Assembly: GCF_000732725.1 (NCBI RefSeq)
Contig: NZ_JPNB01000002.1
Coordinates: forward strand, 682,001 to 746,000
Direction of reading: 5' to 3'
DNA from: Kineothrix alysoides
GTDB lineage: Bacteria > Bacillota > Clostridia > Lachnospirales > Lachnospiraceae
DNA: 64,000 nucleotides
Positions 5,794 to 51,613 of the stretch are shown here, one piece after another; the first letter of the stretch is position 1; every line of letters begins with the position of its first letter. The translations under genes and the position numbers were made by a program. The notes beneath the pieces were generated by a model, which worked only from the letters and a program-made list of their open reading frames with translations, did no database searches and had not been told where the DNA came from.

Positions 5794-5834
5794 AAAATGG
5801 GATGCCCCTATAAGCAGGAACACCCCAACATTTT
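5794..5834 (-). terminator. possible intrinsic terminator after araB
   Basis: On the minus strand AAAAT...GGGGTG pairs with CATCCC...ATTTT (a 3-nt bulge on one side), starting at the ribulokinase stop codon. The U-tract is short and interrupted, so read-through into the sensory genes is possible. A TATAAT box on the minus strand at 5743-5748 with no good -35 could start the sensory set separately. Confidence 0.35.
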
Positions 5835-7512: not shown

Positions 7513-7554
7513 TATCCTTCTCCTAGCATCTAAAACTAATAAAAGTTATCCGAA

Positions 7555-8331: not shown

Positions 8332-8403
8332 ATGAATTTTCTCCTTTATCCTATATTTAATCTAAACCGCTTTCCACTCTTGCCAACTTAAGTTCCACAA
8401 ACC

Positions 8404-9351: not shown

Positions 9352-9360
9352 CTTTACCTC

Positions 9361-13859: not shown

Positions 13860-16800
13860 TTATCCTCCATACCTCTGTTTTTTACGATATCTGATAGTAA
13901 GCCCCACTCCCGCAGATATAGCAATTGAAATAAGAATATAGAGCACCAGACCATTGGCATGCTTTTTCTCTTCTTTTTCCTGGGCATATCCCGAGTAAGC
14001 ACTCATATCACGAATCGCAAGCTTCACATTTTCCGATTGGTAAGCCGGTGCGCTGAAATACTGTTTCATATCTACAATTTCATAAGTGCCCGTTGCCTGA
14101 TTGTAAACGGTAATAAGATCTCCGCTATTTGTGCTCTTTTCTTCCGTTCCTCTATTGTCCTGATCTGTGTCCTCCTGCCCGTTTGAGGATTTTATTTGCG
14201 GCGGCTTTTGCCCGTTGTCTATTCCTGCTCCTTCATCCGATACGGAAGTTCCCGCGGTGGATGACTTCGACGCTTTTGAAGCATTCCCCGCTTTCTCCTC
14301 TTTTTCCTGATCCGCTTCCGGCTTCGCTTCTTTTATTTTACCGCTATTTTGTATTTCTTCCGCAAGCTCGTCATCGTTGTCCGTGGTACTTAAGGCTTTT
14401 CGGGTCCCGCCATCCGGCTCTTTCCCTGCAGAACCCTGTTCCGCAAGGCTTGACTCAGTCTCTACATCAGGACTTAGAACTTCACCAATGCTTCCGTCTG
14501 TTCCCGGCTCCGCACCATTACCAAGCGCGGTTCCGGAAGCAACCAAGTCACCATTGCCCATGCCTTCCCCAACAATACCTGCTGATTCTGCCGGCGGATT
14601 CCCTGCAGAACCGTCATCCTCTCCTGAAGCCATCGGTCCATTCTGCGCATCATTACCACCTTCCGCAACTCCTGATTGTCCGGCAGTATTGGTATCCGTT
14701 CCAAACGCGCTTCCGTTCCCGCCGCTTCCCTGCGACTCTTCAGAATCCAAAATGACATTGGAGGAGTCCGCTTTTCCACCTGCCGGAATTTCTTCTGCCC
14801 GGCTGCTTTTTATCCCATCGGAATCGCCTTCTGACATCGCTGTTACACCCGATGTCTTAGCGCCTTCTTCTGCCGCTCCCGTTTTTTCATGTTCGCTCTT
14901 TGTGCCGTCTCCGGTACTATTCTCATCATTTTCTTCTCCTGAACTGTTGCCTTCTACCATTGTAAAAAGACGGTCAGCAGTACCTGCAATTTCCGCAACC
15001 TTATGATTCGCCGCATAGCTGTTGCTCATTTGGGCATACATGGACTTGTCCCCCATAAAATATACCTTAATATAATCCAATAAGCTTATCTCATCGGCAA
15101 ATGAGTAGTCAAACAAATATTCCCCTGTCATATAGTTATATCCGACAATTCCTCCATTGGAATACTCCACTAAGACAAATGGAGCCGAACAATCCAGATT
15201 GTTTGTCATATAGACGATTCCGCTTCTTTTAAAGTCTTCCGGCGCGTTGATATTCTCTCCCTGCTGCATATCTACCATAATGCCATCATCACCTAAAATC
15301 GTCTGGTAACTGTCTCCGGCCTTCACGTAAAGTAAAATGGAGTCTTTCACATTCTCAATCATACCGTCAACAAATCCCATTACTCCTGTGCTTCCCTTCA
15401 GTATTTGGGTTTCTCTCTGCACAATATCTGAACCTATGATTTCTGTAAACTTCGAATATGTTTCTACTTTATAGCCGTCATAATCAAAGGTTTGCAGAGG
15501 TATCGGATGTTCGATGGCTCCGATGCCCTCTACGCTGCCAAGTACCGTTCCGCTTTCTATCTCTATAACCTGTCCGTCTTTCGTCAGCGCTTTCCCATTA
15601 TAGATGGTGATATAAGAGCCTGCCATTGTCTGAGCGCTCGGATCTTTTCTCGTCCCCTTTGATTGCTCTGTACTCTCTTCTCCTGACTCCGTTTGCTCCT
15701 CCGCTTCTTCTTTCACCGTTGAACCCGTTCCCGATACGATACCTGCCTCATCAATATAATAATACTTTGTTCCGTACGTCATGACATGCCTTGCCAACGC
15801 AGATGATTTATAATAAATCGGTTCACCATCTTCCCAATAATACTCCTCCGGATAGTCAAAGATATCTTCCAGCATATAATCGGTTCCATACACCTGTCCG
15901 TCTGCTTCCATATCTATTACAAACTGGTCAGGATTCGCAACGCCTAATTGAAGCTTAAGTCCCGCCCGGTAATCATAGGTGTAGGTATATACACGTTTTG
16001 TTATCAGTTGCTTATCTACTGTCTGATTCCCATATGACAGCATAAAGCAACCGTTTCCGTCTACAAAGTTCTGGCTGAATTCTATATTTACCTTATCCAC
16101 ATCAACCGGATAAATAATAGCATATGTATTATTAAGACTTCTCAGCATAAACGGGGAAGCATCGATACGCTGGGCAGATGGTGTCCATACGGGTATGGGC
16201 AATGCCAATCTGTGCGCCGACTGATAGCTTACCAAATAATCCGATATTATATTTGATTTTTCATTAATACGGATATGCGGCAAATAATCTTTGTCCTTAT
16301 ACATACTTGCATCAAGCAACGCATCCCACACTGCTGTACTTGTAATACCCGAATGAATAAACCTGTGGTAGTCTCCTTTTACGTTAAGGCCATTATAGGT
16401 CCCGTTCGCCTCTTTCCATTCCGTTTCATGACCTGACTGACTGCTTGTCCATGTAAGCCATCCAAGAGCCCGGAACATCTGTAAATTTCTAATATCTGAT
16501 GCCGATACGATACGGACATTATATGCATCACTAGGTGCATTTTCACTGGCAATACTGCTATACTCATTTTTGTTCCAGCGCTTAAAGCGATAGGTACCGC
16601 TGTTCTTTGCATAATCCGGAGCATCTGCATTTTTTGCCAAATACAATGTATCATTTTCTGTCGTTCCTCCGACCCTCATCCCATCCCAGAAGTAAGTACG
16701 TCTCGCTTTATCTGCCGACGTATTATCTTTTGATATTGATATCCCATTTGCTTTCCCTTCAAATCCATCCTGATAACCGGAAAAAGCATGTGCAGTCCCT

Positions 16801-19800
16801 GCCATATCGGAGGTAACTGATTTGGCAAGTATTAAATTCATATATGTGTACTCATTTTCATTCGAGGCTCCGCTCTTATATCCGCTTTGATCTGCCTTGC
16901 TGCTTCTTCCGCCGCTCGCCTTATGCGATGCCGCTACGGAATTACTATAGGCCATTTCATTGCGTCCGATAGCTCCTCCCGCCCATTTATTGGCATGAAC
17001 CGTTCCCGCAAAATAATTATACCTCATCCCTACTCCTGAATAGGAGTATACCGGATTACCGTTTATCGTAGCCGTAGTATAAGAGTTCTGATAGATTCCT
17101 GATATTCCGCCTGCGGAATGCCCCTTGCCTGCCACGTTTGCATTAGAATAGCTGACAACTATCGCTCCTGCATTGTGGAAACCCACAATACCTCCTGTCC
17201 CGTTATATCCTACAATCTGATATTGCTGCTTAGCCGCAGGAGATATCGTGTTTTCCGGTTCCGCATAATAAAAGCTGCGATTTACACCATTTGAACAGTA
17301 TCCTACTACGCCTCCTACATAATCAAAGCCGGAATCAGCAATCGCTGAACTTGTAAGTATATTCGTATTCATAACGCCGCTGTAAGAAACGGTAGCTTCA
17401 CTTTTTCCAACTAATCCGCCGACAGATTCAAAGCTTCCGGCAATCGTTTTTTCCGCCTTGATTGAGGAAGTATTAACATAGCAGTAATTAACCGCTCCAT
17501 TATTTGCTTTGAAACCATCGAGCAAGCCTATGTTTGAATGGTTTTTGACATCGATCGTCGTATTTTCCACTACATTATAGTTATCGCTATAATCATGGTA
17601 ACCACTGATTCCTCCGACATAATAATACAAAGATGCCGGTGTCTTACTTGTAGTGACTAAAGTATTCTTTACTGTCGTATTGCTGGCGTCATAGCATCTG
17701 CCGAACGCTCCTCCAATATAGCTGCCATGCCCTTTTACTATAATGCCGTCTACCACTAATGGCCTTGCATTAACCGCCGAGTTGCCGGCAGAACCTTCCC
17801 AGCCATTCGCATATCCATACAGCAGACCTGCCAGACCTCCGACGTAATTACCATTGGTACCTGACAGCATAGTCTCCTGTACACCGATCACAGTAGTAGA
17901 AGCAATAATATTACCGCTGCCGTCATAAGTTGGCGTGCCCGTCAATGTAATATTCCTGAAACAAGGAGCATTTACCGTTGTTCTCGGACTTGCATTTACG
18001 CCGACGATTCCTCCGACATAATCATTTCCCGCACCGGTAACAATAATGTCTTTAAAGCTTATATTATCAAAGCCTGATTTCTCGGTTCTTCCAACCAGAC
18101 CTCCGACACTTCCGCTTCCTTTAACGGAAATATTCTCTCCTGTAATATCCTCATATAGGGTGCCTCCTGTCGAGAATCCGACAAAGCTGCCTACCTGAAT
18201 TTGTTTTGTTCCATTCAGACCGACTTCGATATTTTTCAATTTGATATCTGACAGCTTACCGCTGATCTGGTATCCTATAATTCCCACATTATTTTTATCC
18301 GCTGTCCTGTTATCAATCTTAATCCCTTCAAATTCCACATCTGTTATCATTCCGGCCGAGGTTCCAATAATTCCTGTACCATCACGCAGAGCAGAATTTA
18401 CCGAGCAGTTCTTAAATGCAATATTGCTCAATTCGGTATTCAACCGGAAAATAAAATTTTCATTATTTCCCTGGAGACTTCCCTTGCCGGGTCCGATATT
18501 CACATTGGAAAGAACCGCCTTCCCGGAACTTACTCCCCCCCTTAAACGTCCAATCTTGGCGTTCGTTGTAGGATTAACACCGGTAAATGAAATATCATTA
18601 ACAATTCGGTAGTTTTCATAATTTCCATAATTGTTTGTTAGATTAATATATTTATTCCATGTATCTACATCTTTGATATCACAAAACATGGTGAGCGGAA
18701 CTCTGACAGGATTATCAGAAAAATCTGCCTTCCCAATCGTGATACTGTTATCATCCGCTACTTTCTGGTATGTAATTTCCGTCAATAAATAGCTGTCCTG
18801 CCAATGTTCTTGCTTGGATTCCTGCAGGTAATCCGCATATATCCTGTTTTTCCCGCTGCTTATATCGTCAAACGTATATTTCAGATTTTCTATTTTAACC
18901 CCGGTAATTTTATATCCATTAGGATTATTCAAATCCATATAAATATATCTTTGGTCTTTATTAATCCCTACATCCCTTACTTCCAAATCATTATTTTGAA
19001 CATGGACCAAACTAAGAGGGGTGTCGGTCTGAAACGGCAAAGGAAGCGTAGTTCCGACATAGTACAATACGGGCATGACTCCACGCGTTACCACCGAATA
19101 ATCATATACTTTATCCATCTGAGCTATTGTTGTATAGGTATCCGGATTCTGCAGTTGGTCATAAGTTAATAAATCCAATGTGTTATCATCTTTAGGCTGA
19201 CCGCTCATACCGTTAAGAAGCTGCACTTGCGAACCATAAAAAGAAACTATGCTGCCGGCATAACTTCCAATCGTATAGGATACATATTCCGCATTTGGAT
19301 TGGAGCCAAATACGCTGCCCAGCGCAATACCGCTCATATTGTTTCGTGAATTAAGTACGGAGACCAATGCTGCTTCACCTATAATTCCACCCATTTTATC
19401 CTGATAACCGGTTACATTTACCCTTGAAATTACATTAGTCATACCATTATCTGTTGTGTTGGCGACATAATAACCTGCAATTCCGCCAACATTCATACCG
19501 CGGACGGACATATCCCCCGTAGCATAAGCGCCGTCTATAATACAATAATTATTAAAACCGATGATTCCTCCGGCACCTTCGCAGTTTCTAATATCTTCTA
19601 CCGCCATGTTCAATTCACGAACATAACAATTACTGATACGGGCTTCCGTACCATATCCTACCATTCCGCCGATACGGCCTGTTGTATTGGTATTTTTAGG
19701 TTCCAGATATTTTATATTAATACCTGAGATACTGCTGTCCTGAATTTCAGAAATCGCATAGCTGTAAGCCGCGATTCCGCCCATATATCCATATCCGGTC

Positions 19801-22800
19801 AAAGAAACCTGTTTTAAATGAACATTGCTGATCACTCCATAAAAAAGTCTGATCAAGCTCGCATCAGCACCGGTTGTTCCCGCTGTTCCAAGCGTGATAT
19901 TTTCGACGCACAAATTCTTAATCTCACCGCTCACATTTGCAAAAAGGTTAGGATAACTGCTTGTAATCGTTATATTCTTTATGGAATACCCGGCCGGATT
20001 GTCCGATGTGTTGCCACGGTACTTATTACCATCCAGCTTACCTTTATATTCCTTCGCTACATTAATACGATTGGCGGCAATTCCCGTAAAATCAATATCT
20101 GCTTGTAATTTGGCGTTTTCCGTCGGCGCACATACTACGTAATCATACCAATCCTGCGCATTGTAAATATTTCGGTAAAAATCTACAAGGAGAATAGGAT
20201 TCGGGTTAAATGTTACGCTCTGTATCCTCCCGTTTATATAACACTCGACCGTTGTAATTTCATACGCTGAACAAAAACGGACGGCACCTGATACCTTAGC
20301 CCGCAAAGTCGTAAAGCCATCTTCCGACACAACAGAGGCGGAATCTATTTCTGTTGTAAGATTATCGATGACGATTTCCCTGATATCCGCATTTCTTGGA
20401 TTGCTCAGACGAAATTCCACAACAGCCGCCTGCTCATTATCTGTATATTCAATCACCGTCGAAGATAAAATCTCAACCAACCGATTATTGATTCTGCTCG
20501 GCAGCGGTATATATGGCTGCTCCGGCATCTCAGCAGACATCTTAACGTGCGGATAATATCCGACTTCAACATTGGAAGTGATAAATTGATCTCCTAAAAC
20601 CGATGCCTGCCAGCTGAAATCATTTAATGATTCCAAACCAATTCTATTTTGATATACAGATTTGGTATATGTAATATTATTCTCATTCCAATAGTAGACA
20701 TTGCTTGTCCTGGAATTATTGGTTCCAAGAACAGGCCCTATATCTGCATCATAACTACTGTTATTGTATACGGAACTATAATATGACTGGCCTATTCCGT
20801 AAATACTGGTGATTCTTCCCCCTGCATTTCCTGCTACGGAGCCATACTCTGTTACAGCAGCAGTTCCTTTGTCAGGGCTGGGAACCACCACATTTACCAG
20901 GCTAAAAACATTATAAATCCTGCCGTTAGAGCCTTGCGCCCCCGCTATTGCACCAATGCGGATAGCACCGCTCTGTGACGGAGTTCCCACATCTGCATAG
21001 ATATCAACACCGTAAGCATATCCATATCTTATAATCCCTTTATTATAACCGCACAGCAATCCGCATTCATATCTGGCAGTAAAAGGCATCATTCCATCCT
21101 CAGGATCATTGCTGATTGCAAAGTTCTCAATAATTCCCGATACTGTATTAATGCGGCATAATAATCCGAAATATCTATTTGCTACAGCCGCCCCCCCTTT
21201 AAATCTTACATGCACATCATGTATGCGGCCGTAATTGTTATAGCACAGCACTCCTGTATCATAAGCTGCCGATGTATAATTATCCATCTTTACATCAAAC
21301 ACCATATTACATATTTCGCCCTTAGGGCCAATATTGGAAAATAACGAACTGCCATTGGTTTTATAATTATAGGATAACGTATATCCTTGAAAATCAATAA
21401 TTCCATTAAATATTGATGCCAGATTAACAGGTCTTACAGATTGTCCCGCATTATCAGGGTTCTCATAGTAAATATCACTTTCCAAACTAATGTCGCCCGT
21501 GATTATATATTTCCCGGTACCGCCGCCATTTTTTATTTTCCATACGAATTCCTTCGCATTATCGATATTTTCTGCAATCTGATCTGCGGTAAAGGTTAAT
21601 GTATCCAATTCCAGTATCTGTCCGTTAATAATTACGTACAGTACCAGCGTATATGTATTATCCCCTTTATCTACAAGAAAAGATTTATTATGTATCACTC
21701 TGTTTGAAGCATCATAATCACCGGTTCCTATTGTATACGCTGCCGGATAGCCGGCGCTTCCCGTAATATCCACCCCGTTTTTCTTCACTTGAATAAAATA
21801 AGGAAGGTTTTGAAGAACTTTATCCTTATCATCTAATGTCACCTTCGTATTTGCACAAAGTCTTTTACTGTCATATCCCGCAATATTATACAGCTTAATC
21901 GTTCCCGACAAGTTAATAGAATCGCTTAACAGCAACTCCTTCAGAATCTTATTGGACTCAAAAGTTGCATTGGTATAGCCTTCATTATATTCAACAGCAA
22001 TAAAAGTAAGCTTAAACTTCGCTTTAGGATCTAAATTCTTGATTTCAACCGGAACCGCGTCGTCTGTATTCTTAGGAATACGAAGCGCTTTCACAAAAGT
22101 ACCGTCCTGCTGGTACAGATTCATTACTACTTTATGACCTGAATTGCCGATAATTGCTTCATCCGTATCCGTTACCTTCACATTAAAGCGCAGTGTTCCC
22201 GCAGCAAGTAATAAATCAGTCACTTCCACCTGAGCCGGTTCTCTTAACGTCTTGAAAGTGGATTGCGTAAGAGTTACGTTCATAGGGTATTTAATTCCGT
22301 TATAGGTAGCCCATATGGTCGGTTCGATTATATAATCGGTCATACTTTTCAGCGGATTCTGCCCTTCCTTTTGACCGGAAAAGAACGAGGCATCCATGGA
22401 TACCGAACCATTCTGCACCTTGTTCGGCGGATCTGTTAAATGGTCATACCCGCTAAATGTAGCCATTGCCGTAGGATCAAATTGAATAAAGGAATCCGTT
22501 ATCGCTTCCGCTCCGTTTCCCCTGATAATTTCAAATTTAACATCCGATAATAATGATTCCAGGACATCATTCGTACGCTCGGTATTCAAAGTATACATGA
22601 TAACCGTACTGTGTGCCGTAATATTGGAAATATCAGCATTCACATAAATATTTCCCAAAGATGACAAGGAGGCAGCCGTAAATGCCAGATTTGTGATTTC
22701 GCCAAACAAGGTATTACCTGCTCCATTATTTAAGTTATAATCGCAGAATAAATAAGCATAATATTTCCGGTTTAACTCCAGACTATTGACTGAAATAACT

Positions 22801-24851
22801 TTACCGTCAATACTTATTTCATATTCCGTATCGGAACCGCTTATATACTTTTTATACTCCTCCTGCGTAAATTTATATGCATAATAAATTCTTCCGCCGT
22901 CAACTTTTCCGCCGTTCTCTATGTATTTGTCACATTCCTGCTTCGTAATCGGTGATGTTTCCATATTTTTCTCGGAAGAGAAAACAAGATAAATATTATA
23001 ATTTCCGCTATTATCCCCTAAAATCGCGGATTTATCAGGATCTGACATTGTTACCTTCATCTTAAAATCACCGATTTTGTTTTGAACAATTTCCAGTTCT
23101 CCGACAGGACGCGATTTACAAGTAATAAATTCGCCCGTATTGTTGATCAACTCTATTTTCTTGCCAAAGTAGTCAATCGCTTCAATCTTATAGGAATACT
23201 CGCTGTTCGCTTTTAAATTAGGCATAGATTTCAGCAGTACATCCATACCGTTTTTAAAATTACGAATTTCCAATGCATCAATATTGGTAGTCGCATGAAA
23301 ACCAAGCTGTGTACCTTTTCCACTTACGGTTAATAGCAAACCGCCGGAACGATTAATTCCGTACACCGCTTCTTCATCGGAAATTCCCTTCAAATATTCC
23401 ACATGGGGAAGCTCCAATCTATTATCATAAAATACCTCAATATCCCTGTCATCTAACGCAACAGAACCTAATGCATCATAAGATTTCGTATGTAATGTTG
23501 TGTCCAATAAGGATTCCACCACTGTTTGATCGTATTCATCGTAATAGGTAAAATAAGCATTTACTCTGTATCTGGTATCCGGCTTAATCGCTCCGTTTCC
23601 TGCTGTAATGGTTTGTGATGAGCCGGTATATGTACGAAGAGCCAAAGTCTCTTTTCCACTGCTATCCACTTCATAAATCTCAAACTGCACTTTTCTGAGA
23701 GGATGTAATCTTCTGGCCGGGTCGCTTATCTTTACCGTTACCATTAAACGATATACTCCTTCTTCCATAGAAGTTATTTTTACAGAAGGCTTCTGATATT
23801 CCGGATCGGGCTGTTTCGTATCGTCTGTGGAGGGCTGCTTGTCAGGACGCATCGAATCCGGGCGCACTCCCATACTGCCTCCCCCCTGATTAGCCGAACC
23901 GCCGCTTTCTGAACGAGGCGGTCTGGAGGGCTGCTTTGCTTTTTCGCCGGAAGGCGTCTTCTGCTGAGACGAGGATGCCTCCGGCTGCTTTGCTTTCTGA
24001 ACATCCCTTTTTTCTTTTTTTACAGTTTCTTTGTCTTCTTCTTTATCTTTCTCTGTTTTGTTCTGCTCTTCGGAGACTTCGGTCTGTTCCCTTGGACTAT
24101 CGTCCACTACTGTTTCCGGAATCAGGAACTCCGTCTCTCCTTCTTTTTTCTCACTCTTTTCCTTTTTTTCAGTAATAACATGCAGCTTTAATAAAAGGTC
24201 ATGGTAAGTATAAGGGGTATTATTTATCGTAATGATATCGTTGTCATCTATTTGACGGCATACCTGATAAACACCTGCTCCATCATTTGGTTCACAATAG
24301 GTAAAATAACCTTCTTTAAAATAAATAATGCTGTTCATAGCTATTTCGCGCTGTTCATTCCTGTCCTGATAAGCGACTTGATCCAAATTGATAAAAAGAC
24401 CGTTTGTAAGCCTGCAAAAAAGATATTCTGTTGCATCAGCCCGCTCGCCTCCCGGATTGTATGAAATTCTCTCACTGACTGTCAGGCCTTGATAAGTATC
24501 GTTTTCTTTGAATTCCAAATCAAAAAGCTTTCCGGAATTCTCCATAAAGATAATTCCCGCATCACCATTGATATAAAAAGGAAAAGATAGGTCCACCTCC
24601 GTCTTCTTGTTTTCCCCCATATAAAAAGAGCTTCCCCGTTTGTAAATATAATCAAGCGCGTCAAAACGGTAATAAGGAATTGTTTCCGCATCTTTTCTCT
24701 CTTCTATGTCGGCCATGAGCATTTCTTTTATGGCATTACCGGAAATAGCATATCCGCTATCTTCCACTCTCAAATATGTATTAAACTTCGTTTGCAGAAG
24801 CAATAGTATAATGATAACTGCCGCTCCAATGCCTAACCAAATTTTCTTCAT
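13860..24851 (-). CDS. giant GLUG/beta-helix surface protein, membrane-anchored at both ends
   Basis: 3663 aa. An N-terminal signal-anchor (about 4-20) is followed by a beta-rich head to about 225 and a charged, disordered Glu/Lys/Pro/Ser linker at about 228-352. FN3-like beta domains run from about 355 to 1100. At about 1110-2640 there are many GLUG-type repeats (GGIVGYN, GGLVGKS, GGIAGYY, GGMVGYG forms), the pattern of stacked right-handed beta-helix adhesins. A further globular region is followed by an acidic Ser/Gly/Glu-rich stretch (about 3295-3580). A C-terminal TM (about 3632-3653) has a basic tail RYRKKQRYGG. There is no LPXTG motif. GAGGAAA lies before the ATG and the gene starts 3 nt after the 240-aa gene. 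As last gene of the F1-like ATPase operon it is probably the main surface part of that machine (inference); exact function unknown. Confidence 0.88.
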   Translation of the reverse strand: MKKIWLGIGAAVIIILLLLQTKFNTYLRVEDSGYAISGNAIKEMLMADIEERKDAETIPYYRFDALDYIYKRGSSFYMGENKKTEVDLSFPFYINGDAGIIFMENSGKLFDLEFKENDTYQGLTVSERISYNPGGERADATEYLFCRLTNGLFINLDQVAYQDRNEQREIAMNSIIYFKEGYFTYCEPNDGAGVYQVCRQIDDNDIITINNTPYTYHDLLLKLHVITEKKEKSEKKEGETEFLIPETVVDDSPREQTEVSEEQNKTEKDKEEDKETVKKEKRDVQKAKQPEASSSQQKTPSGEKAKQPSRPPRSESGGSANQGGGSMGVRPDSMRPDKQPSTDDTKQPDPEYQKPSVKITSMEEGVYRLMVTVKISDPARRLHPLRKVQFEIYEVDSSGKETLALRTYTGSSQTITAGNGAIKPDTRYRVNAYFTYYDEYDQTVVESLLDTTLHTKSYDALGSVALDDRDIEVFYDNRLELPHVEYLKGISDEEAVYGINRSGGLLLTVSGKGTQLGFHATTNIDALEIRNFKNGMDVLLKSMPNLKANSEYSYKIEAIDYFGKKIELINNTGEFITCKSRPVGELEIVQNKIGDFKMKVTMSDPDKSAILGDNSGNYNIYLVFSSEKNMETSPITKQECDKYIENGGKVDGGRIYYAYKFTQEEYKKYISGSDTEYEISIDGKVISVNSLELNRKYYAYLFCDYNLNNGAGNTLFGEITNLAFTAASLSSLGNIYVNADISNITAHSTVIMYTLNTERTNDVLESLLSDVKFEIIRGNGAEAITDSFIQFDPTAMATFSGYDHLTDPPNKVQNGSVSMDASFFSGQKEGQNPLKSMTDYIIEPTIWATYNGIKYPMNVTLTQSTFKTLREPAQVEVTDLLLAAGTLRFNVKVTDTDEAIIGNSGHKVVMNLYQQDGTFVKALRIPKNTDDAVPVEIKNLDPKAKFKLTFIAVEYNEGYTNATFESNKILKELLLSDSINLSGTIKLYNIAGYDSKRLCANTKVTLDDKDKVLQNLPYFIQVKKNGVDITGSAGYPAAYTIGTGDYDASNRVIHNKSFLVDKGDNTYTLVLYVIINGQILELDTLTFTADQIAENIDNAKEFVWKIKNGGGTGKYIITGDISLESDIYYENPDNAGQSVRPVNLASIFNGIIDFQGYTLSYNYKTNGSSLFSNIGPKGEICNMVFDVKMDNYTSAAYDTGVLCYNNYGRIHDVHVRFKGGAAVANRYFGLLCRINTVSGIIENFAISNDPEDGMMPFTARYECGLLCGYNKGIIRYGYAYGVDIYADVGTPSQSGAIRIGAIAGAQGSNGRIYNVFSLVNVVVPSPDKGTAAVTEYGSVAGNAGGRITSIYGIGQSYYSSVYNNSSYDADIGPVLGTNNSRTSNVYYWNENNITYTKSVYQNRIGLESLNDFSWQASVLGDQFITSNVEVGYYPHVKMSAEMPEQPYIPLPSRINNRLVEILSSTVIEYTDNEQAAVVEFRLSNPRNADIREIVIDNLTTEIDSASVVSEDGFTTLRAKVSGAVRFCSAYEITTVECYINGRIQSVTFNPNPILLVDFYRNIYNAQDWYDYVVCAPTENAKLQADIDFTGIAANRINVAKEYKGKLDGNKYRGNTSDNPAGYSIKNITITSSYPNLFANVSGEIKNLCVENITLGTAGTTGADASLIRLFYGVISNVHLKQVSLTGYGYMGGIAAYSYAISEIQDSSISGINIKYLEPKNTNTTGRIGGMVGYGTEARISNCYVRELNMAVEDIRNCEGAGGIIGFNNYCIIDGAYATGDMSVRGMNVGGIAGYYVANTTDNGMTNVISRVNVTGYQDKMGGIIGEAALVSVLNSRNNMSGIALGSVFGSNPNAEYVSYTIGSYAGSIVSFYGSQVQLLNGMSGQPKDDNTLDLLTYDQLQNPDTYTTIAQMDKVYDYSVVTRGVMPVLYYVGTTLPLPFQTDTPLSLVHVQNNDLEVRDVGINKDQRYIYMDLNNPNGYKITGVKIENLKYTFDDISSGKNRIYADYLQESKQEHWQDSYLLTEITYQKVADDNSITIGKADFSDNPVRVPLTMFCDIKDVDTWNKYINLTNNYGNYENYRIVNDISFTGVNPTTNAKIGRLRGGVSSGKAVLSNVNIGPGKGSLQGNNENFIFRLNTELSNIAFKNCSVNSALRDGTGIIGTSAGMITDVEFEGIKIDNRTADKNNVGIIGYQISGKLSDIKLKNIEVGLNGTKQIQVGSFVGFSTGGTLYEDITGENISVKGSGSVGGLVGRTEKSGFDNISFKDIIVTGAGNDYVGGIVGVNASPRTTVNAPCFRNITLTGTPTYDGSGNIIASTTVIGVQETMLSGTNGNYVGGLAGLLYGYANGWEGSAGNSAVNARPLVVDGIIVKGHGSYIGGAFGRCYDASNTTVKNTLVTTSKTPASLYYYVGGISGYHDYSDNYNVVENTTIDVKNHSNIGLLDGFKANNGAVNYCYVNTSSIKAEKTIAGSFESVGGLVGKSEATVSYSGVMNTNILTSSAIADSGFDYVGGVVGYCSNGVNRSFYYAEPENTISPAAKQQYQIVGYNGTGGIVGFHNAGAIVVSYSNANVAGKGHSAGGISGIYQNSYTTATINGNPVYSYSGVGMRYNYFAGTVHANKWAGGAIGRNEMAYSNSVAASHKASGGRSSKADQSGYKSGASNENEYTYMNLILAKSVTSDMAGTAHAFSGYQDGFEGKANGISISKDNTSADKARRTYFWDGMRVGGTTENDTLYLAKNADAPDYAKNSGTYRFKRWNKNEYSSIASENAPSDAYNVRIVSASDIRNLQMFRALGWLTWTSSQSGHETEWKEANGTYNGLNVKGDYHRFIHSGITSTAVWDALLDASMYKDKDYLPHIRINEKSNIISDYLVSYQSAHRLALPIPVWTPSAQRIDASPFMLRSLNNTYAIIYPVDVDKVNIEFSQNFVDGNGCFMLSYGNQTVDKQLITKRVYTYTYDYRAGLKLQLGVANPDQFVIDMEADGQVYGTDYMLEDIFDYPEEYYWEDGEPIYYKSSALARHVMTYGTKYYYIDEAGIVSGTGSTVKEEAEEQTESGEESTEQSKGTRKDPSAQTMAGSYITIYNGKALTKDGQVIEIESGTVLGSVEGIGAIEHPIPLQTFDYDGYKVETYSKFTEIIGSDIVQRETQILKGSTGVMGFVDGMIENVKDSILLYVKAGDSYQTILGDDGIMVDMQQGENINAPEDFKRSGIVYMTNNLDCSAPFVLVEYSNGGIVGYNYMTGEYLFDYSFADEISLLDYIKVYFMGDKSMYAQMSNSYAANHKVAEIAGTADRLFTMVEGNSSGEENDENSTGDGTKSEHEKTGAAEEGAKTSGVTAMSEGDSDGIKSSRAEEIPAGGKADSSNVILDSEESQGSGGNGSAFGTDTNTAGQSGVAEGGNDAQNGPMASGEDDGSAGNPPAESAGIVGEGMGNGDLVASGTALGNGAEPGTDGSIGEVLSPDVETESSLAEQGSAGKEPDGGTRKALSTTDNDDELAEEIQNSGKIKEAKPEADQEKEEKAGNASKASKSSTAGTSVSDEGAGIDNGQKPPQIKSSNGQEDTDQDNRGTEEKSTNSGDLITVYNQATGTYEIVDMKQYFSAPAYQSENVKLAIRDMSAYSGYAQEKEEKKHANGLVLYILISIAISAGVGLTIRYRKKQRYGG

Positions 24852-24854
24852 ATG

Positions 24855-25577: not shown

Positions 25578-25592
25578 TCTTTCATCCGCTCC

Positions 25593-26129: not shown

Positions 26130-26153
26130 TATACCCTCATTTTATCTTTTGTT

Positions 26154-28621
<2,468 letters not shown>

Positions 28622-28625
<4 letters not shown>

Positions 28626-29947: not shown

Positions 29948-30746
29948 TTCTTCTCCTCGATTCGTAGACACTGTAATCATATAGCCTGTTTTGATAAACA
30001 ATTCTGATACCTTCACATACATTGCTGTCAAATTGACATATCACATTGTCCGCTATATAAGAATAATCTTCATCCTTTTCCCCTAAATAAGCCATTAGTA
30101 TGGGGCTTTCTTTCGTTATGACCTCATTGATCCAGTTCAGAAATCCTAATAGATTAAACTCCTTTGCTTCACGCAAAGGTTCCAGATATTCTTTCAGCAA
30201 CTTTTTTTCTTCTCGTTTCAATTCCTCATCCAGTAATTTCAGCTGTGTTTCTTCCGGGAGGCTGCTCAAGTCATAAACAGCTTCAAAATTAAGAGTTTGC
30301 AGAATGCTTTTTGCTGCATTATATCTTTTTTTATCGCCTGCATAAGGAAATTTATCCAGAATCGTGCGAATAATCTCTTCTTTATCTATAATGAGCAGAT
30401 TCTTTACTAATTTATAATCTTCAAAAAATACGTTATCAATATATCTGGCCGTAGGAATAAAAATATCTCTTTCAACCGGACGCGGCCGGTAAAATCTTGA
30501 AGTTCCCAAAGAGTTATGATCCATTTGAAGCATTCTTATTTCCTGCTTCAGCTCTTCTTTGCTAAACTCCAGATTCTGTATCTCGTCTATCTTTTTTTGA
30601 AAATCATCATCATATTCGCTTAATTTTGATAAAAAATAAGCGTTCACTTTCTTTGTCGCATTTTCAATAACGAGCCTCAAGGATATGATGATAAAATAAA
30701 TCATGACACCCATTACCAAAAATATAGAGATAAAAACCGCAGTCAT
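29931..30746 (-). CDS. b-delta fusion stalk protein, F-ATPase-like
   Basis: 271 aa. The N-terminal TM (about 4-28) is followed by a charged helical, coiled-coil-like stretch (about 30-80) like AtpF. The C-terminal half is helical and ends with NVCEGIRIVYQNRLYDYSVYESRR, close to the AtpH ending (GG-x-I-x-I-x-D-x-x-x-D-x-S). It occupies exactly the place of atpF-atpH between c and alpha. It should form a peripheral stalk holding the hexamer to the membrane. GGAGG precedes the start; the end overlaps alpha by 17 bp. Fusion of b and delta also occurs in mycobacteria, but this looks independently arranged. Confidence 0.7.
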   Translation of the reverse strand: MTAVFISIFLVMGVMIYFIIISLRLVIENATKKVNAYFLSKLSEYDDDFQKKIDEIQNLEFSKEELKQEIRMLQMDHNSLGTSRFYRPRPVERDIFIPTARYIDNVFFEDYKLVKNLLIIDKEEIIRTILDKFPYAGDKKRYNAAKSILQTLNFEAVYDLSSLPEETQLKLLDEELKREEKKLLKEYLEPLREAKEFNLLGFLNWINEVITKESPILMAYLGEKDEDYSYIADNVICQFDSNVCEGIRIVYQNRLYDYSVYESRRRNEYIY

Positions 30747-30769
30747 CTTTATGCCTCCACCGCTTTTTC

Positions 30770-32714
<1,945 letters not shown>

Positions 32715-32782
32715 AGTATTCCTTCCTCACTATAAGTAAGAGTTGCAGTTCGGCCTTCGGCTGAACTGTTACAGGTAAGCAC

Positions 32783-35700
32783 TTATTCCGCTGGAGCAGT
32801 ATTGCTGTTTGTATCCGAAGCATTATTGGTTCCGTTTGTCTGGGGGCTCGTATTGTCGGCTGTCCCTGTCTGAACCGTATTGCTGCCTGTTGTCTGGCCC
32901 GTTGTCTGACCTGTTGTCTGGCCTGTTGTCTGGCCTGTTGTCTGGCCTGTTTCTGCACTATTTCCAGCCTCCGGCGCCGGCGCACTTTCGGCGCCGTTTT
33001 CTTCTATGAGAGACGGATCTGTTGTACTTTTATTATTCTGAGATGCCTCCGAGTTAAACAGAGAAAAATTTCCTGTTCCCGATACTTTAACTGTAATGAC
33101 ATCATTTCCCAGCATTTCGCCGGAACCTGTCTGATATTGGACCTGTATTTCATAAGTTCCTGCAGGTATATCGCTCTGGGAACCCCAATTTAAAACCATT
33201 TCATATGTTGTCTGGGAACCATCATACCCTGTATCCGTCGTGTTATAAAGCTTCACTCCGTCTTTATAAGCAGTTACCAGAATCTTTCTGACACCGGAAA
33301 AGTTTTTCAGATTAGACAATGTTAATGTCAGTTCTTTCGCTGTTCCCGCTGCTCCCAAAGTTGCAGAAGCTCCGCCGGAAGTAGTAATCGTCATTTTCTT
33401 TTCAACGAGCTCATAGGTTGATGATGTTGCATTGTTCAAAACATCCGCATTTGCTTTCACGGAAACAGTATATAAAGATTCTTGGCTTAAATCTGAAAAT
33501 ACCACTGTCTGTACTTTTTTATCGCTCTGTTTTGTCACTGTCATAGTCTCAATCGGCGAACCTGTTGTTGTATTCCCCTTATAAATTTCTACCACATACA
33601 TGTTGTCAACAGCACTGAACTGCGAATCCGTACAGACGATATTCGCGGTAACTTTTGCAGTATCCTCTCCTGTAGTCTCCTGGCTTAACTGGATATAAAA
33701 ATCAGGGATATCTAATTTAGCAGGTGTTGTAAATATAACTTCCTTAGTTCCCACTATTGAATTTTGCAGCTTGTCAAAGACTTCAACTTTAAGCTTATAT
33801 TCCGTTCCCAGTTTTAATATATTGCCGCTTGCACTAGGATTCATCAAAATCGTCATTTTATTATTCTCTTCTATTTTCTGAGAATAATATGACTTATCCC
33901 CTGACCCAAGAGGTGCAAGGTCCGTCGGACCATATACGACATTGCCATTGCTGTCTATGATAGAATATTTTACTATCATTCCTGTACCTTCATCTCCGGG
34001 AATCGCAAATCCGAAGGATGCCCGTTTATCGCTATACGAATTATAAATATAGTCCGGTCCATTGGTATTTATCGTAATCTGATTTTTAGTTTTAATCTCA
34101 TAAGCATAAGGGCTGGTTTCTCCGTCAAGGGAATACAGATCCTTCCTGTTGCCTGCGGTATCATAAGCAAACATGATAATACGATATTCCGTATTAGCTT
34201 TAAGTCCCCTGACACGAAGCGGCAGTGTTATTTTTCCATCCTTTGGAATGACTGGAATGGTGTTGTCCTTATAGTTGCCTTGGCTATAATAATCTGCTGC
34301 ATCCGTATACCTGTCACTGTCATCCGTTATATAATAGTATATCGTTTCACTGTCGCGCACTTCATTATCTACGGCTACCTTCAAATTCTTATAGCTGCCA
34401 TCCGACTGCCGCTCCATAATCTGAGCATAAAGCTTACTGTCGTTTGTCGCACCTGTTCCCAGCACTTCAAAGTTAAGAAGTACACTCATAACGCCTTGGC
34501 TGGAATTGATTAATTTTACCGCCGGAAGAATATCTCCCAAATTAACATGATAGGATGTATCATTGCCTCCAAAGTTAAGTGCCCCGGACAATGCCAGTTT
34601 CTCTGCCGTATAGTAGGACGCATTTACCGCCGCCTTTTCCTTCATACCGCTTTGGTCGCACTCAATGCTTACCGTCTTACTTTGTAAATAATTTCCAGAC
34701 AGCAGCACCAGGGGAATCCCTGCGTATCTTTGAGACAACTCGTTTTCCGTAAAACCATTGCCTTGTACCGCTCCCGGTACAAAAAGAGATTTGTTCAATT
34801 GAGAACTTCCGTCTTCCCTTTTCGCCGTATCAACGAAAATATTATTCGAAAAATAGATATATTTAGGTTTACCGGTTTGGTCATAGCTCTTTAACGCATA
34901 AAGGGTTTCATCCACAAGTTCCTTTTTTGAGTCTCCAATCGCCTGTGTAGAGGCATAACCGGACATACCTGTTTCAAATGTGCTGTAATATCCCTGTACA
35001 ATAACGTCCACCGCGGAAATGTCCGCATTCTCCTTCATTGCTTTAAGCGGCGAGGTGTCCATATACGCATAACCGTACGGATATTGAGTCCCTCCCTGCG
35101 TATCCTGCATCGTTCCCTGCTGGATATCGAGATATACGGGGTCATACACCACTCTCTCCTTTTCGTTATTACTTGCATCTTTTCCTATAAATGTGACACG
35201 TAAGGCCGCATATTTATAAATATCGCTGCCGCGAAGGGTCAAACGATACAGATATCCCCCCTGATTAATCAGCGCCATCTCATGACCGTCCGGCGTTCTG
35301 TTTTCACTTGCAACGCTTTCATCCGCCACTTTTCCCCGGGCCTCAATATTAGAAGGAGCCGTGTCTACAGATGCAATAAACTGAACCGGTGCAGAAATAA
35401 TCTCTTGCTCTGTCGTTTCACTTGTCAGCAGTTTATAGGGAACTGTAACCGTATAATAATATCCGTTTGTAAGAGTCTTTAACTGCAGTTGTGTAAAGTC
35501 AGTAAGATAATTTGCTAATTCTGCTTCAACAGTAGCTATTGATGTTGCTGCAGCCCCAATAGACGCATAGCTCTTTAGCTTCAACTGAGCTTTCGTACCG
35601 CCTGCATCCAAGGTTATCGCTTTGTCGGGATCTTCCATCTTGTACTTCCATGTCATCGAAGTTTTATCGCTTGTCCATGGATAGCGTTGTACTTTCGGTG

Positions 35701-38700
35701 TCTGTTTTACTACCGATACCACTTTGGAACGGTAATAAGGTACTGGTTCACCTGCATTATATGTACAGTAAGGATAAATATCGGGATTGCCATCATCATC
35801 ACAATCATAGCCAAATACAGGATCTTTCGATGCCTTCACCTGATAAGCAACATAATATCTTCCGCCTCTTGTTATTACCTGATTTGCAGGATTACCTGTT
35901 TTATTTTCCCATGTAAGGTCGTTATTAGCTTCTGCCAGATCACTAAAATAGAGTGTGATCGGCTCTGCTTTTCCGTTCCCCACGTTACCCTGTAAATTCT
36001 TCAGGGTAAGTTCACAGACTAATTCTCCAAGGCCTACCGTTCCGCCATCTGTAATGGAAGCCGGATCCGTTCCTCCCGGATAAATATTTTTGCTGGTGCC
36101 GGTACCGCTTCCGTCCGGTGAAACTTCATTATCCTTGAGTTTATATATTTGGTATGTAATTTCCAACGCATCCGCATAAGGATAGTTCGCCTGAAGCAGC
36201 AATCCTACCGGTGTATCTTCTCTCAGGTTCGCATCCTTATGCTCCGCATCCGCATCCTTATTCAAGATGACGGAAGAACTTACCTGACTTGTTGGATCGG
36301 CTGCCTGAATATGCTTTTTCTTAATTTTGAATTCCATTAAATTTTCTTTATCTGTAAATGGAATGACATTTTGATGAGGATTCGTATAGTCAGTTGCTGT
36401 TACAACCCGAATAATAAATGTTCCGCCGCCAAAGAATACGGAATCATTATCATCCAATCCGAAAGATGCCGGAGAGATCAAAAGCTTATTTTCTCCGGTT
36501 TTAGGATTAGCTGTAGTTAGACCGTTTGTACCGTCCGCAGTCACCACACCGCGGTCAACCCATCCCCCGCTGAAGAAGATACTTCCATGCGTATCTGCAT
36601 CACTATCTTTGATGATATATGGATTCCCGATTACTTTTTCAACTCCATCATCCGTCCTGTGCACCAACTCCAGTTTCAGAGTCTCCATCGTTTTGGTTTC
36701 ATACTTATAAAAATCTGTTGGAATACTTCCTGACGCGCTTGAAGTAAAGTTTATAAGTTTTTTAAACGCAGTCGTTGCATCCGAAACAGTTGTGAAAACC
36801 GCACTCAGTCCGTATGTGTCCGTTGTTTCGGCTCTGATGCCCACCAGATAAGTAAACTTCTCCGCGTCGCTTATCGAGCTGTTATTATCCGTATCTACAG
36901 GACCGCTCACCGATAGCGCATAAGCAGTTTTCGCTCTGAGCCCTGTCTGCTTAAAATAATAATAAACTGCCTTTCCCGGGTTTGTCTCAGGTGCATTTAC
37001 CGTATTTACCAGCTTTATACTATAAACATCTTCATACTCACTCGATATGGTAAGTACAAGAGGATATGTATCTGAAATATATTGAGTCAGCATATTTCCT
37101 GCATCGACCACTCTTACATATCCGTCTATTGTCTCATGAAAGCCTCCGGTCTCCGGTGTCTTATTTACCTGGATAATTTCCACTGCTGGAAACGTTGCAT
37201 CGGACAAGCCGGCTCCTGTGGAAAACAGTGTAGAATATTCTACTTCCTTCTCATTATCATCAAAAATGATAACTACTCTGGCCACATAATTTTCCTTGTC
37301 ATCTGTTGGAAGATTGAACGTCTGTACCTTTAAGGTAGAGGATTCTAAAGTATATGCCGGTGTCAGGTTAGTCAGTGAATTACTGTCAATTGCCGCCGTA
37401 ACATCGGAAGCTTTATATAGTTCATAGCGATATCCTTGAATTCCATTATCCTTGTCTGTCAGCGCATCCAGCGTGACTGTAAGCGTACGGAATTTATCAT
37501 TTGCAGTTAAGGTTGGGGCCATTGCAGAAATTAATACCTTATTATTCTCATCACTGCCCGCCTTATAGGGTTTCTTCTTTAATGTTTTAACTTTAATCTC
37601 AGTTCCGTCTGTTGCAATAACCGCACCGCTGCCGGCTGTTGTCACATTAGTAAGCGCAGCATAATATGCAGTATTGCTTTCTATTACGAAATTCCTGATT
37701 CTATTGCTGTCGCTTGGAGTATTTTCGTTAAATAATAAGTCGGATTTGCTGCTTGATAATGCCGGATATTTCGCCAGTTCTACTTTATTTCCATCATTAT
37801 CATACCGATAAAGCAGTACATCATAATTTCCAATAGATGTAGATGTCATTATTGTTCTTAAAGTCAGAGAAGCATCTGTTACGCTTTGTTTCTCAAGCGT
37901 TAATCCCAATGCATCCGTTTTAAACACTTTTGTAAACAGATTAGCCTCTTTTCCTTCTAAATCAGACTCTTCTGATACGTACTTGCCGGAAACAATCAAT
38001 ATATATTCTTTATCCGACGAAAGCGTATTCATATTTATTTGAAAGCTGCCATTCTGCTCTAAACTGGTTCCCCAGCCATTATTTGGCGGCGATACTTCCT
38101 GCATCGTTGCTCTATCATAAATCTTTACTTCAGTGGAACCTTGTAACAGAGAGTTATCCGAATCGGACATATTGAGCTTCATTTGCACACCGCCCGGAGT
38201 AATGTCAAAGCTACTGCTATCCATAGTTACAATAGGGCGTGACAGCACTTCTACTCCGACAATTCCAGATAAATCTTCCTTTCTTTTTCCATCTTTTCCA
38301 TCGACTCCATTCGCACCGTCATATCCCATAACGCCGCTGTCGCCTTCGAGTCCGTCCAAACCATCTGCGCCGTTTATACCATTGCTTCCTTGCGCTCCTG
38401 CTGCACCTTCTGCTCCTTCACTTCCTTCTTCTCCTGCTTCTCCTGCTTCTCCTACTTCTCCCTCTTCACCTTCTTCGCCTTCTTCGCCTTCTGCTCCCTC
38501 TGTTCCGGCGGCGCCATCCTTGCCGTTTACGACATTAAATGTAGGTATTTTCAACACAGGAGAATCGGCATTCTCATCCAGTTCGATATAACTGTCATCA
38601 TCAATTGACATAGAATCCAAGGACACCGCAGGCTCTCCGTTTATATAGAAACTTTTTCCAACTAAATTAAGCTCAGCGCCATTCTGGGTACTGAGAAAAG

Positions 38701-39325
38701 TGTCTGCCGAAACCGTTTGATAAGTACCTTGCTGGTGCACGATTCGAACGATTCCGTTATCTACATATTTAATTTGGGCATAGCCAGGTAATGTGATTTC
38801 AGTAGATTCACTTAAGCGCAATGTTACCTCAGGAGAAGTGATCATATAATCTGTGTCTGAGATTTTCCATATGAATTCCGACAGGCTCATCGATTCGCCT
38901 CTGCTGCTCATCTCATATGAGTTGCCGTTTTTTACAAGAATTGTATTTTTTGTAAGACTGTAATATCCAAACTGGCCTTCCTTTATATCGCTCAGGCTCA
39001 TAATTACGCCTTTGGTAAACGAACCTAACGATCCGTCGGCATAGTGCAAAAATTGTTCGGCATCGAGAGCAACATCCGTCCCCGTTTTATCTTTAAACAG
39101 GACTTTTTCTCCATATCTTTCTTTATATTTTGCTCCTTGGCTGAAATAATACTGTTCATTCACTTCCATTGTTACATTAACTTGCTCGGAAGGTTTTAAT
39201 ATGAAACCATCTGCCGGAAACTCTTTTGTATTTTTCCGGTAATTAACAGTGCTTAATGAAATAAGCCCGGTAGCTAATAACAATACAGCTACCACGATAA
39301 TCAAGATGCCTCTTTTTACTTTCAT
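32783..39325 (-). CDS. giant membrane-anchored surface protein with collagen-like rod and FN3-like array
   Basis: 2180 aa. A signal-anchor (about 6-25) is followed by a beta-rich head (about 45-260). There are 27 uninterrupted Gly-X-Y collagen-like triplets (268-348), very acidic in the first half (GEE, GEA). A long series of FN3/Ig-like beta domains follows to about 2090, and a TTGQ-repeat low-complexity C-terminus. There is no LPXTG and no C-terminal TM. GGGGGAG lies before the ATG. It is the first gene of the ~25.5 kb F1-like ATPase operon. The collagen triplets could trimerise the protein. Role inferred as an extracellular arm or adhesin; function unknown. Confidence 0.88.
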   Translation of the reverse strand: MKVKRGILIIVVAVLLLATGLISLSTVNYRKNTKEFPADGFILKPSEQVNVTMEVNEQYYFSQGAKYKERYGEKVLFKDKTGTDVALDAEQFLHYADGSLGSFTKGVIMSLSDIKEGQFGYYSLTKNTILVKNGNSYEMSSRGESMSLSEFIWKISDTDYMITSPEVTLRLSESTEITLPGYAQIKYVDNGIVRIVHQQGTYQTVSADTFLSTQNGAELNLVGKSFYINGEPAVSLDSMSIDDDSYIELDENADSPVLKIPTFNVVNGKDGAAGTEGAEGEEGEEGEEGEVGEAGEAGEEGSEGAEGAAGAQGSNGINGADGLDGLEGDSGVMGYDGANGVDGKDGKRKEDLSGIVGVEVLSRPIVTMDSSSFDITPGGVQMKLNMSDSDNSLLQGSTEVKIYDRATMQEVSPPNNGWGTSLEQNGSFQINMNTLSSDKEYILIVSGKYVSEESDLEGKEANLFTKVFKTDALGLTLEKQSVTDASLTLRTIMTSTSIGNYDVLLYRYDNDGNKVELAKYPALSSSKSDLLFNENTPSDSNRIRNFVIESNTAYYAALTNVTTAGSGAVIATDGTEIKVKTLKKKPYKAGSDENNKVLISAMAPTLTANDKFRTLTVTLDALTDKDNGIQGYRYELYKASDVTAAIDSNSLTNLTPAYTLESSTLKVQTFNLPTDDKENYVARVVIIFDDNEKEVEYSTLFSTGAGLSDATFPAVEIIQVNKTPETGGFHETIDGYVRVVDAGNMLTQYISDTYPLVLTISSEYEDVYSIKLVNTVNAPETNPGKAVYYYFKQTGLRAKTAYALSVSGPVDTDNNSSISDAEKFTYLVGIRAETTDTYGLSAVFTTVSDATTAFKKLINFTSSASGSIPTDFYKYETKTMETLKLELVHRTDDGVEKVIGNPYIIKDSDADTHGSIFFSGGWVDRGVVTADGTNGLTTANPKTGENKLLISPASFGLDDNDSVFFGGGTFIIRVVTATDYTNPHQNVIPFTDKENLMEFKIKKKHIQAADPTSQVSSSVILNKDADAEHKDANLREDTPVGLLLQANYPYADALEITYQIYKLKDNEVSPDGSGTGTSKNIYPGGTDPASITDGGTVGLGELVCELTLKNLQGNVGNGKAEPITLYFSDLAEANNDLTWENKTGNPANQVITRGGRYYVAYQVKASKDPVFGYDCDDDGNPDIYPYCTYNAGEPVPYYRSKVVSVVKQTPKVQRYPWTSDKTSMTWKYKMEDPDKAITLDAGGTKAQLKLKSYASIGAAATSIATVEAELANYLTDFTQLQLKTLTNGYYYTVTVPYKLLTSETTEQEIISAPVQFIASVDTAPSNIEARGKVADESVASENRTPDGHEMALINQGGYLYRLTLRGSDIYKYAALRVTFIGKDASNNEKERVVYDPVYLDIQQGTMQDTQGGTQYPYGYAYMDTSPLKAMKENADISAVDVIVQGYYSTFETGMSGYASTQAIGDSKKELVDETLYALKSYDQTGKPKYIYFSNNIFVDTAKREDGSSQLNKSLFVPGAVQGNGFTENELSQRYAGIPLVLLSGNYLQSKTVSIECDQSGMKEKAAVNASYYTAEKLALSGALNFGGNDTSYHVNLGDILPAVKLINSSQGVMSVLLNFEVLGTGATNDSKLYAQIMERQSDGSYKNLKVAVDNEVRDSETIYYYITDDSDRYTDAADYYSQGNYKDNTIPVIPKDGKITLPLRVRGLKANTEYRIIMFAYDTAGNRKDLYSLDGETSPYAYEIKTKNQITINTNGPDYIYNSYSDKRASFGFAIPGDEGTGMIVKYSIIDSNGNVVYGPTDLAPLGSGDKSYYSQKIEENNKMTILMNPSASGNILKLGTEYKLKVEVFDKLQNSIVGTKEVIFTTPAKLDIPDFYIQLSQETTGEDTAKVTANIVCTDSQFSAVDNMYVVEIYKGNTTTGSPIETMTVTKQSDKKVQTVVFSDLSQESLYTVSVKANADVLNNATSSTYELVEKKMTITTSGGASATLGAAGTAKELTLTLSNLKNFSGVRKILVTAYKDGVKLYNTTDTGYDGSQTTYEMVLNWGSQSDIPAGTYEIQVQYQTGSGEMLGNDVITVKVSGTGNFSLFNSEASQNNKSTTDPSLIEENGAESAPAPEAGNSAETGQTTGQTTGQTTGQTTGQTTGSNTVQTGTADNTSPQTNGTNNASDTNSNTAPAE
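32886..32945 (-). repeat. 5 x 12-bp tandem repeat encoding TTGQ
   Basis: Five head-to-tail 12-bp units (plus strand CCTGTTGTCTGG with one variant) lie near the 3' end of the 2180-aa gene and encode in-frame TTGQ tetrapeptides. Copy-number change would keep the frame. Confidence 0.85.
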
Positions 39326-51367: not shown

Positions 51368-51459
51368 ATACAATGTCTAATTATAACAAATCGATAAACC
51401 ACAGTCAATTAACATCAACAAAAAATCGCATTGATTTGCTGTAACTTATCGACTAAAAA

Positions 51460-51611: not shown

Positions 51612-51613
51612 TA

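Follow-up and report, generated by a model that had tools for sequence, protein, structure and literature searches.

What work is done by an F-type ATPase that is encoded without subunit a and among giant surface proteins? The question is raised by an eleven-gene cluster on the minus strand of a 64,000-nucleotide stretch of the Kineothrix alysoides genome (hereafter the window). Rotary ATPases are ion pumps or synthases according to textbooks. The exceptions that we found described are the F1-like ATPases of mycoplasmas, which are wall-less cells; here we report a counterpart in several walled lineages, which has kept a c ring and a peripheral stalk and seems to have lost ion transport. We consider it likely that the cluster encodes an ATP-hydrolysing rotary motor that no longer pumps ions and instead does mechanical work on the envelope of walled bacteria. 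A bolder version, possible but held with less than even confidence, is that this is a third, independent kind of rotary ATPase, whose c ring would serve purely as a mechanical rotor and, in Gram-positive gut bacteria, drive anchored rods and giant arms across the wall. At the level of sequences and models, the system has intact F1 residues, a shaft, a stalk-like b-delta protein, an acid-free c subunit, a cluster without subunit a, and conserved membrane-anchored surface proteins. We infer rotation, a static unit of b-delta, a five-transmembrane (five-TM) protein and an anchor protein, and transmission to the rods and giants. The system could represent an intermediate between a pump and a mechanical motor; if the rotor reading is true, walled cells would possess an extracellular machine that rotates or cranks at the expense of ATP.

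The eleven-gene cluster and the housekeeping ATP synthase

We know the genes of the window from open reading frame (ORF) calls, Pfam, NCBIfam, hydropathy, family alignment and predicted structures, including AlphaFold2 (AF2) models scored by the predicted local distance difference test (pLDDT). On the minus strand, from 39325 to 13860, eleven ORFs are packed tightly, with three overlaps and a largest intergenic gap of 68 bases:

32783..39325, minus strand: surface giant of 2180 amino acids (aa), with one N-terminal TM segment (6-24), a juxtamembrane domain, collagen-like GXY repeats (268-348) and immunoglobulin/FN3-like domains (Pfam, hydropathy, homologues)
31044..32714, minus strand: 556-aa GGX-rod protein, with one N-terminal TM segment (16-34), a juxtamembrane domain akin to the giant's, GGX repeats (251-334) and a weak FN3 resemblance (profile comparison, hydropathy)
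30770..31027, minus strand: c-like ring subunit, with a Gly-rich TM1, a TM2 without the ion-binding carboxylate and a conserved FFNP-type C-terminus (PF00137 3e-9, family alignment)
29931..30746, minus strand: b-delta, predicted peripheral stalk, with a TM segment and helix of about 80 residues, a helical delta-like domain and a beta C-terminal part (AF2 model)
28622..30031, minus strand: alpha-like subunit, with Arg finger R387 and Walker A K200 (Pfam, family alignment)
27834..28625, minus strand: gamma-like central shaft (PF00231 5.9e-24)
26458..27822, minus strand: beta-like catalytic subunit, with Walker A, catalytic Glu182 and Asp244 (Pfam, family alignment)
26154..26468, minus strand: epsilon-like subunit of 104 aa, probably the beta-sandwich part alone (weak NCBIfam match, position, family conservation)
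25593..26129, minus strand: 178-aa five-TM protein, unmatched by the subunit a profile (hydropathy, profile comparison)
24855..25577, minus strand: 240-aa anchor protein, with one N-terminal TM segment by hydropathy and an all-beta domain taken as extracytoplasmic (AF2 mean pLDDT 94)
13860..24851, minus strand: 3663-aa GLUG-type surface giant, with one TM segment at each end and no LPxTG (hydropathy, GLUG-like pattern)

This layout agrees in coordinates and lengths with the initial annotation, which had described eleven consecutive minus-strand genes with small gaps or overlaps and an atp order that is canonical apart from a missing subunit a. There is no PF00119 (subunit a) match among the eleven genes. 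The genome, 4.68 Mb in three contigs and with a stated completeness of 100, contains PF00006 at six loci, and its sole PF00119 match lies in a separate, complete and canonical operon, a-c-b-delta-alpha-gamma-beta-epsilon, at C2:383-389 kb, in which b, delta and epsilon were named by position and by eye. One of the genome's two c genes is in that operon and the other in the eleven-gene cluster, and the two beta subunits are 42% identical. The ATPase of the cluster is not the cell's ATP synthase, and the initial annotation's worry that it might be the only F-type ATPase of the genome falls away.

Pfam E-values against PF00006 are 2.8e-71 for alpha and 6.4e-67 for beta, and that of the collagen match is 1e-12. 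No Pfam cut-off is reached by b-delta, epsilon, the five-TM protein or the 240-aa protein; we name b-delta because its structure model resembles stalks, and epsilon because of its position and a weak NCBIfam match (E 0.022). From the family alignment, two start codons are probably misplaced: c would start at 31015 (81 aa) and alpha at 29947 (441 aa, shorter than the 503 aa of the housekeeping alpha).

Putative motor core, ring and missing subunit a

We fetched relatives with beta alone as query, and the neighbouring genes are thus independent evidence. In GTDB contigs the scan yielded 91 confirmed stretches, and 80 of them were kept as loci (designated L plus a number), with 61-88% identity to the window beta; the pattern scan demands close peptides, and more distant relatives could escape it. 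In the resulting alignments the motor core is intact. The Walker A Lys, the Walker A Thr, the catalytic Glu and Asp244 of beta are each present in 81/81 ungapped rows, as are the alpha Arg finger in 75/75 and the alpha Walker A Lys in 74/74. The window alpha retains an N-terminal helix-like stretch. Epsilon is short, with a family median of 93 aa against 135 aa in the housekeeping subunit. In some Bacilli-type loci (L068, L083, L084, L086, L092 and L119), the alpha ORFs are 562-890 aa long and end in long low-complexity tails rich in Pro, Val, Glu or Thr.

The AF2 model of b-delta, built with 60 sequences (mean pLDDT 85, predicted template modelling score 0.53), combines a single helix about 80 residues long with a helical bundle and a beta part. 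The structure nearest to it is chain d of a mycobacterial ATP synthase (Z 7.3, root-mean-square deviation 8.7, 157 residues aligned); V-ATPase chains and delta/OSCP chains come next. The protein thus resembles a stalk in its predicted form, the top rows being mostly rotary-ATPase stalk chains, though the Z values alone are unconvincing.

The ring subunit is a different matter. Across 69 c sequences the Gly-rich TM1, the RNPE loop and the C-terminal NP are kept, and none of the 69 has the ion-binding carboxylate at the aligned column. No acid occurs in TM2 in 68/69, two of these having an Asp solely as the last residue. We aligned TM2 to the AtpE of the same genome by eye, ungapped, the profile comparison spanning TM1 and the loop only. 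Judged by these residues, the c-like ring looks incapable of ion pumping. Among the genomes of 50 loci taken from the 80, PF00119 was unmatched in 25, and the other 25 do hold a match; of those without one, 24 are 1.0-1.9 Mb and one is 3.0 Mb, and most are metagenome bins. Compared with an F1Fo ATP synthase, the catalytic F1 residues are present and so, by prediction from the model, is a peripheral stalk; no gene of the cluster matches a subunit a profile, and c has lost the TM2 carboxylate at the aligned column.

Relatives and known rotary ATPases

The system is patchily distributed. In a beta scan of 299 genomes of the family, four, the window's own included, stood far above the rest (68-100% identity), and among the further matches listed beta identity was at most 46%. 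A scan of 398 genomes of the phylum gave three carriers, again with our own, and 1/112 genomes of the genus of Bifidobacterium colobi carries the system, a lone carrier that suggests transfer. The titles of the 80 loci name Lachnospiraceae, other Clostridia, Oscillospiraceae, Peptococcaceae, Bacilli, Erysipelotrichaceae, Mollicutes and Bifidobacterium colobi, and many mention rumen, rectum, colon, cecum or feces. Most are titled as metagenome-assembled genomes (MAGs); the records of Lachnospiraceae bacterium G11 and Bifidobacterium colobi LC6 are not titled as metagenome bins. Some metagenome-bin genomes, identified by contig-name prefix, hold two or three loci (L078/L085/L090, L058/L077 and L062/L072). 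Viral contigs, scanned once with beta, gave no relative.

In those loci whose DNA extends far enough on the relevant side, beta is accompanied by gamma in 77/77, alpha in 70/70, b-delta in 68/68, c in 66/67 and epsilon in 78/78. A free five-TM gene is present in 66/77 loci; in each of the remaining 11 it is fused to the anchor gene, as an examination of 24 long anchor-type ORFs showed. The anchor gene is found in 68/73 loci, and its product is mostly 19-30% identical to that of the window. An ORF of at least 1000 aa lies downstream in 54/60 loci and upstream in 50/57. With phmmer and single-sequence queries (E < 1e-3), a relative of the GGX protein lies upstream of c in 62/64 loci, and one of the GLUG giant lies downstream in at least 50/60; this count and the corresponding one for the collagen giant are lower bounds, with most giants clipped at the locus end. 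L118 and L122 have altered gene orders in which the ATPase genes still stay together; L118 is without the downstream giant, and L122, a short contig, is without an anchor or a detectable GGX relative. In L065, L067 and L077 a collagen-type giant follows the five-TM gene (in two pieces in L065), and in L067 and L077 the next genes are an ORF of GGX type and c, in that order, an arrangement that resembles a permuted or tandem cluster. Flanking genes differ, by eye, between the window and three other genomes, and the giants therefore seem to mark the ends of a cassette.

These results bear out the earlier view of a locus bounded by surface proteins, which accompany the alpha and beta paralogues in other genomes too. 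In trees with AtpA/AtpD and mycoplasma Type 3 sequences but none of Type 2, alpha and beta form clades of their own, apart from both; one analysis supports the alpha clade at 97 and the beta clade at 84, and another the beta clade at 96. Descent from mycoplasma Type 3 was considered and set aside on these separate clades, although their branching order is weakly supported (62 and 31) and long branches occur in both analyses. The window proteins also fall below the NCBIfam cut-offs for known types: AtpD, narrowly, by beta (447.6 vs 462.85 bits) and AtpA by alpha (375.4 vs 484.45); Type 3 by beta (NF045934, 385.5 vs 570) and alpha (NF045936, 295.8 vs 520); Type 2 by beta (NF045858, 376.1 vs 850) and alpha (NF045863, 379 vs 600); and the N-ATPase or alternate F1F0 (TIGR03305, 408.6 vs 752; TIGR03324, 346.1 vs 750.5).

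How does the system compare with those described? According to PMC3369863 and PMC12994834, mycoplasma Type 3, of the MIB-MIP neighbourhood, is an extra, non-synthase F1 (alpha, beta, gamma, epsilon) linked to surface proteins, for which mechanical work was proposed. Neither c nor b has a recognised homologue there; a 12-TM protein and one of 87 kDa are described instead, and the hosts are wall-less. For a comparable F1-like ATPase, that of the MIB-MIP system in a mycoplasma, PMC12994834 reports that deletion, or replacement of the beta Walker A lysine, abolished agglutination protection. The window cluster is likewise an extra F1-like ATPase tied to surface proteins. In contrast to Type 3, it keeps c and b-delta, adds the five-TM protein, the anchor and two giants, and occurs in hosts with wall enzymes, and the 12-TM and 87-kDa two-TM proteins are absent among its eleven ORFs. 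Type 2 is represented by the G1-ATPase of Mycoplasma mobile, an F1-like gliding motor thought to pass force through the membrane to surface proteins; it is a twin motor with an extended beta, chains inside the cell and an alpha without the N-terminal helix (PMC11864180). PMC11864180 and PMC12994834 suggest that its GliD derives from b plus delta, and the seven-gene list for Type 2 in PMC12994834 contains no c. Unlike Type 2, the window cluster has c, and its alpha seems to have kept the N-terminal helix. Through gliding and MIB-MIP, the mycoplasma systems demonstrate that an F1-like ATPase is able to serve a machine of the cell surface.

The likeness to canonical F1Fo extends to gene order (c, b, delta, alpha, gamma, beta, epsilon), to the catalytic residues and to Pfam cut-offs (PF00006, PF00231 and PF00137 all reached), whereas the b/delta fusion, the carboxylate-free c, the absence of subunit a and the surface proteins in the cluster set it apart. 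Like the alternate F1F0 or N-ATPase, the set is a second F-type ATPase in its genome; unlike it, the cluster has no subunit a and scores far below TIGR03305 and TIGR03324. By analogy, the best reading is that the window system works like the mycoplasma F1-like X0 ATPases but belongs outside them. Searches of open PubMed Central papers, a set without preprints, listed no description of it.

Envelope proteins, proposed mechanism and alternatives

The surface proteins may share a domain next to the membrane. In the AF2 model of the anchor (mean pLDDT 94) a TM helix joins an all-beta domain, for which Foldseek found no match in the PDB at E <= 0.001 (best VIA Z 4.2), a result that does not imply a new fold; in its own genome the anchor profile matched only the anchor itself. 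With the TM segment included, profile-profile comparison of the juxtamembrane regions gave probabilities of 35-95% for five of the six pairs among the anchor, GGX, collagen and GLUG proteins, 15.5% for GGX/GLUG, and at most 10% for every pair with a b-delta or five-TM control. With the TM segment removed, GGX/collagen stayed strong (84%, reached by 0/100 shuffles), anchor/GGX and anchor/GLUG had 5-7% probability but lay above all 100 shuffles, anchor/collagen and collagen/GLUG were each reached by 1/100 shuffles, and GGX/GLUG failed (13/100). In hidden Markov model (HMM) searches at E < 1e-3, with bias filters off and the TM included, the anchor HMM matched 14/61 GGX, 1/11 collagen and 0/57 GLUG N-termini and 0/171 control segments; the GGX HMM matched 1/11 collagen and 1/61 anchor, the GLUG HMM 1/61 anchor, and the collagen HMM 4/61 GGX, 1/57 GLUG and 1/171 controls. 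That single GLUG match (L111, E 5.4e-33) is a collagen-type giant in the GLUG position. For the GGX and collagen proteins, the comparisons give fair to good grounds for a putative anchor-related domain after the TM segment. In ten loci (L059, L060, L070, L078, L085, L087, L089, L091, L097 and L112), the GLUG giant and the five-TM/anchor fusion are separated by an extra protein of 451-549 aa in which one anchor domain is clear and a second is faint.

The 3663-aa protein matched no Pfam family at E <= 0.01. A GLUG-like core pattern of our own making occurs 16 times in it, against a mean of 1.1 and a maximum of 6 in shuffled sequences, and a homologue in L061 passes the PF07581 cut-off. The last 60 residues of three complete GLUG-giant homologues have a hydrophobic stretch followed by basic residues; LPxTG is absent from all window proteins above 200 aa. 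PF00905 transpeptidases are present in all 50 system-bearing genomes examined, and the host cells are therefore probably walled. Of the 64 loci with c and 1.7 kb of DNA upstream of it, 29 have the rod, a GXX run of at least 30 residues. The idea that Gly-rich rods are confined to walled hosts was rejected on these two counts. Much of the envelope machine first proposed for this locus stands, namely the extra F1-like ATPase, the seemingly non-pumping ring, the synteny with giants and the hosts with wall enzymes; the GGX rod itself is inconstant, and the transmission of torque to extracellular arms is putative.

How might such a machine work? In our proposal, alpha3beta3 would turn gamma, epsilon and the c ring, and b-delta would join the five-TM protein and its anchor partner in a stationary membrane unit standing in for subunit a. 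At least one anchor-domain protein would be moved, either by the c ring, at its conserved outward-facing end, or by a strained stator; the proteins so moved would carry rods and giant, beta-rich arms that pass through the wall or over it. Candidate targets of the arms are mucus, plant fibre, host glycoprotein or antibody, and neighbouring cells; by analogy with the mycoplasma systems, a first guess is that the arms bind a large substrate and then pull or release it.

Several observations weigh against this mechanical motor. The anchor is absent in 5/73 loci and the downstream giant in 6/60. A relative of the collagen giant is found upstream in at least 32/57 loci, and the upstream giant, by sequence, is plainly the cluster's most variable part. 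In the GLUG giant, the case for an anchor-related domain is weak once the TM is removed. Missing sequence in MAG-titled loci could partly explain the 25 genomes without subunit a. The c of L068 carries an Asp in TM2, one residue ahead of the aligned carboxylate position, and 44/67 ungapped rows of the five-TM protein have at position 68, within a predicted TM helix, an Arg or Lys that could recall the essential Arg of subunit a. These last two points would suit an ion pump or ATP synthase, in which the five-TM protein is a highly diverged subunit a and another residue binds the ion, as would the canonical order from c to epsilon with a five-TM protein nearby. However, the basic residue is absent in the other 23/67 rows, the five-TM profile matches the AtpB profile with a probability of 0.6% (100% in a control of half against half), nearly all c sequences lack the TM2 acid, and the co-encoded giants are left unexplained. 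We regard a pump as improbable.

The giants do have a place if the ATPase powers their export or assembly, in the manner of FliI/SctN, rather than moving finished arms. Homologous ATPases of this type drive type III export, and here the giants are encoded alongside the ATPase. However, the surface proteins bear N-terminal TM segments, which should be enough for Sec export, and the shaft, c ring and peripheral stalk are all retained, which makes export or assembly an unlikely role. It is also quite doubtful that the surface genes just adjoin an accessory F-type ATPase, kept in synteny by descent or joint transfer without joint function. The patchy spread (4/299, 3/398 and 1/112 genomes) would suit transfer as a block, but the gene set has been kept across deep divergence, as the anchor identities indicate, though the flanks differ; the ATPase genes stay together where L118 and L122 reorder the rest, and the five-TM and anchor proteins are fused in 11 loci. 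A mechanical motor acting on the envelope remains our preferred reading. As a defence system the cluster drew one marginal match, for beta (6.9e-4), when PADLOC was run on nine of the eleven proteins, both giants left out.

Elsewhere in the window, ribulokinase and sugar ABC transporter genes lie near the eleven-gene cluster (5833-10851), and a P-II regulatory domain is fused to an ammonium transporter (43540-45267). A ribosomal RNA (rRNA) operon on the minus strand (51297-57086) reads 16S, 5S, tRNA, 23S and then tRNAs; the 5S gene between 16S and 23S is an unusual rRNA order.

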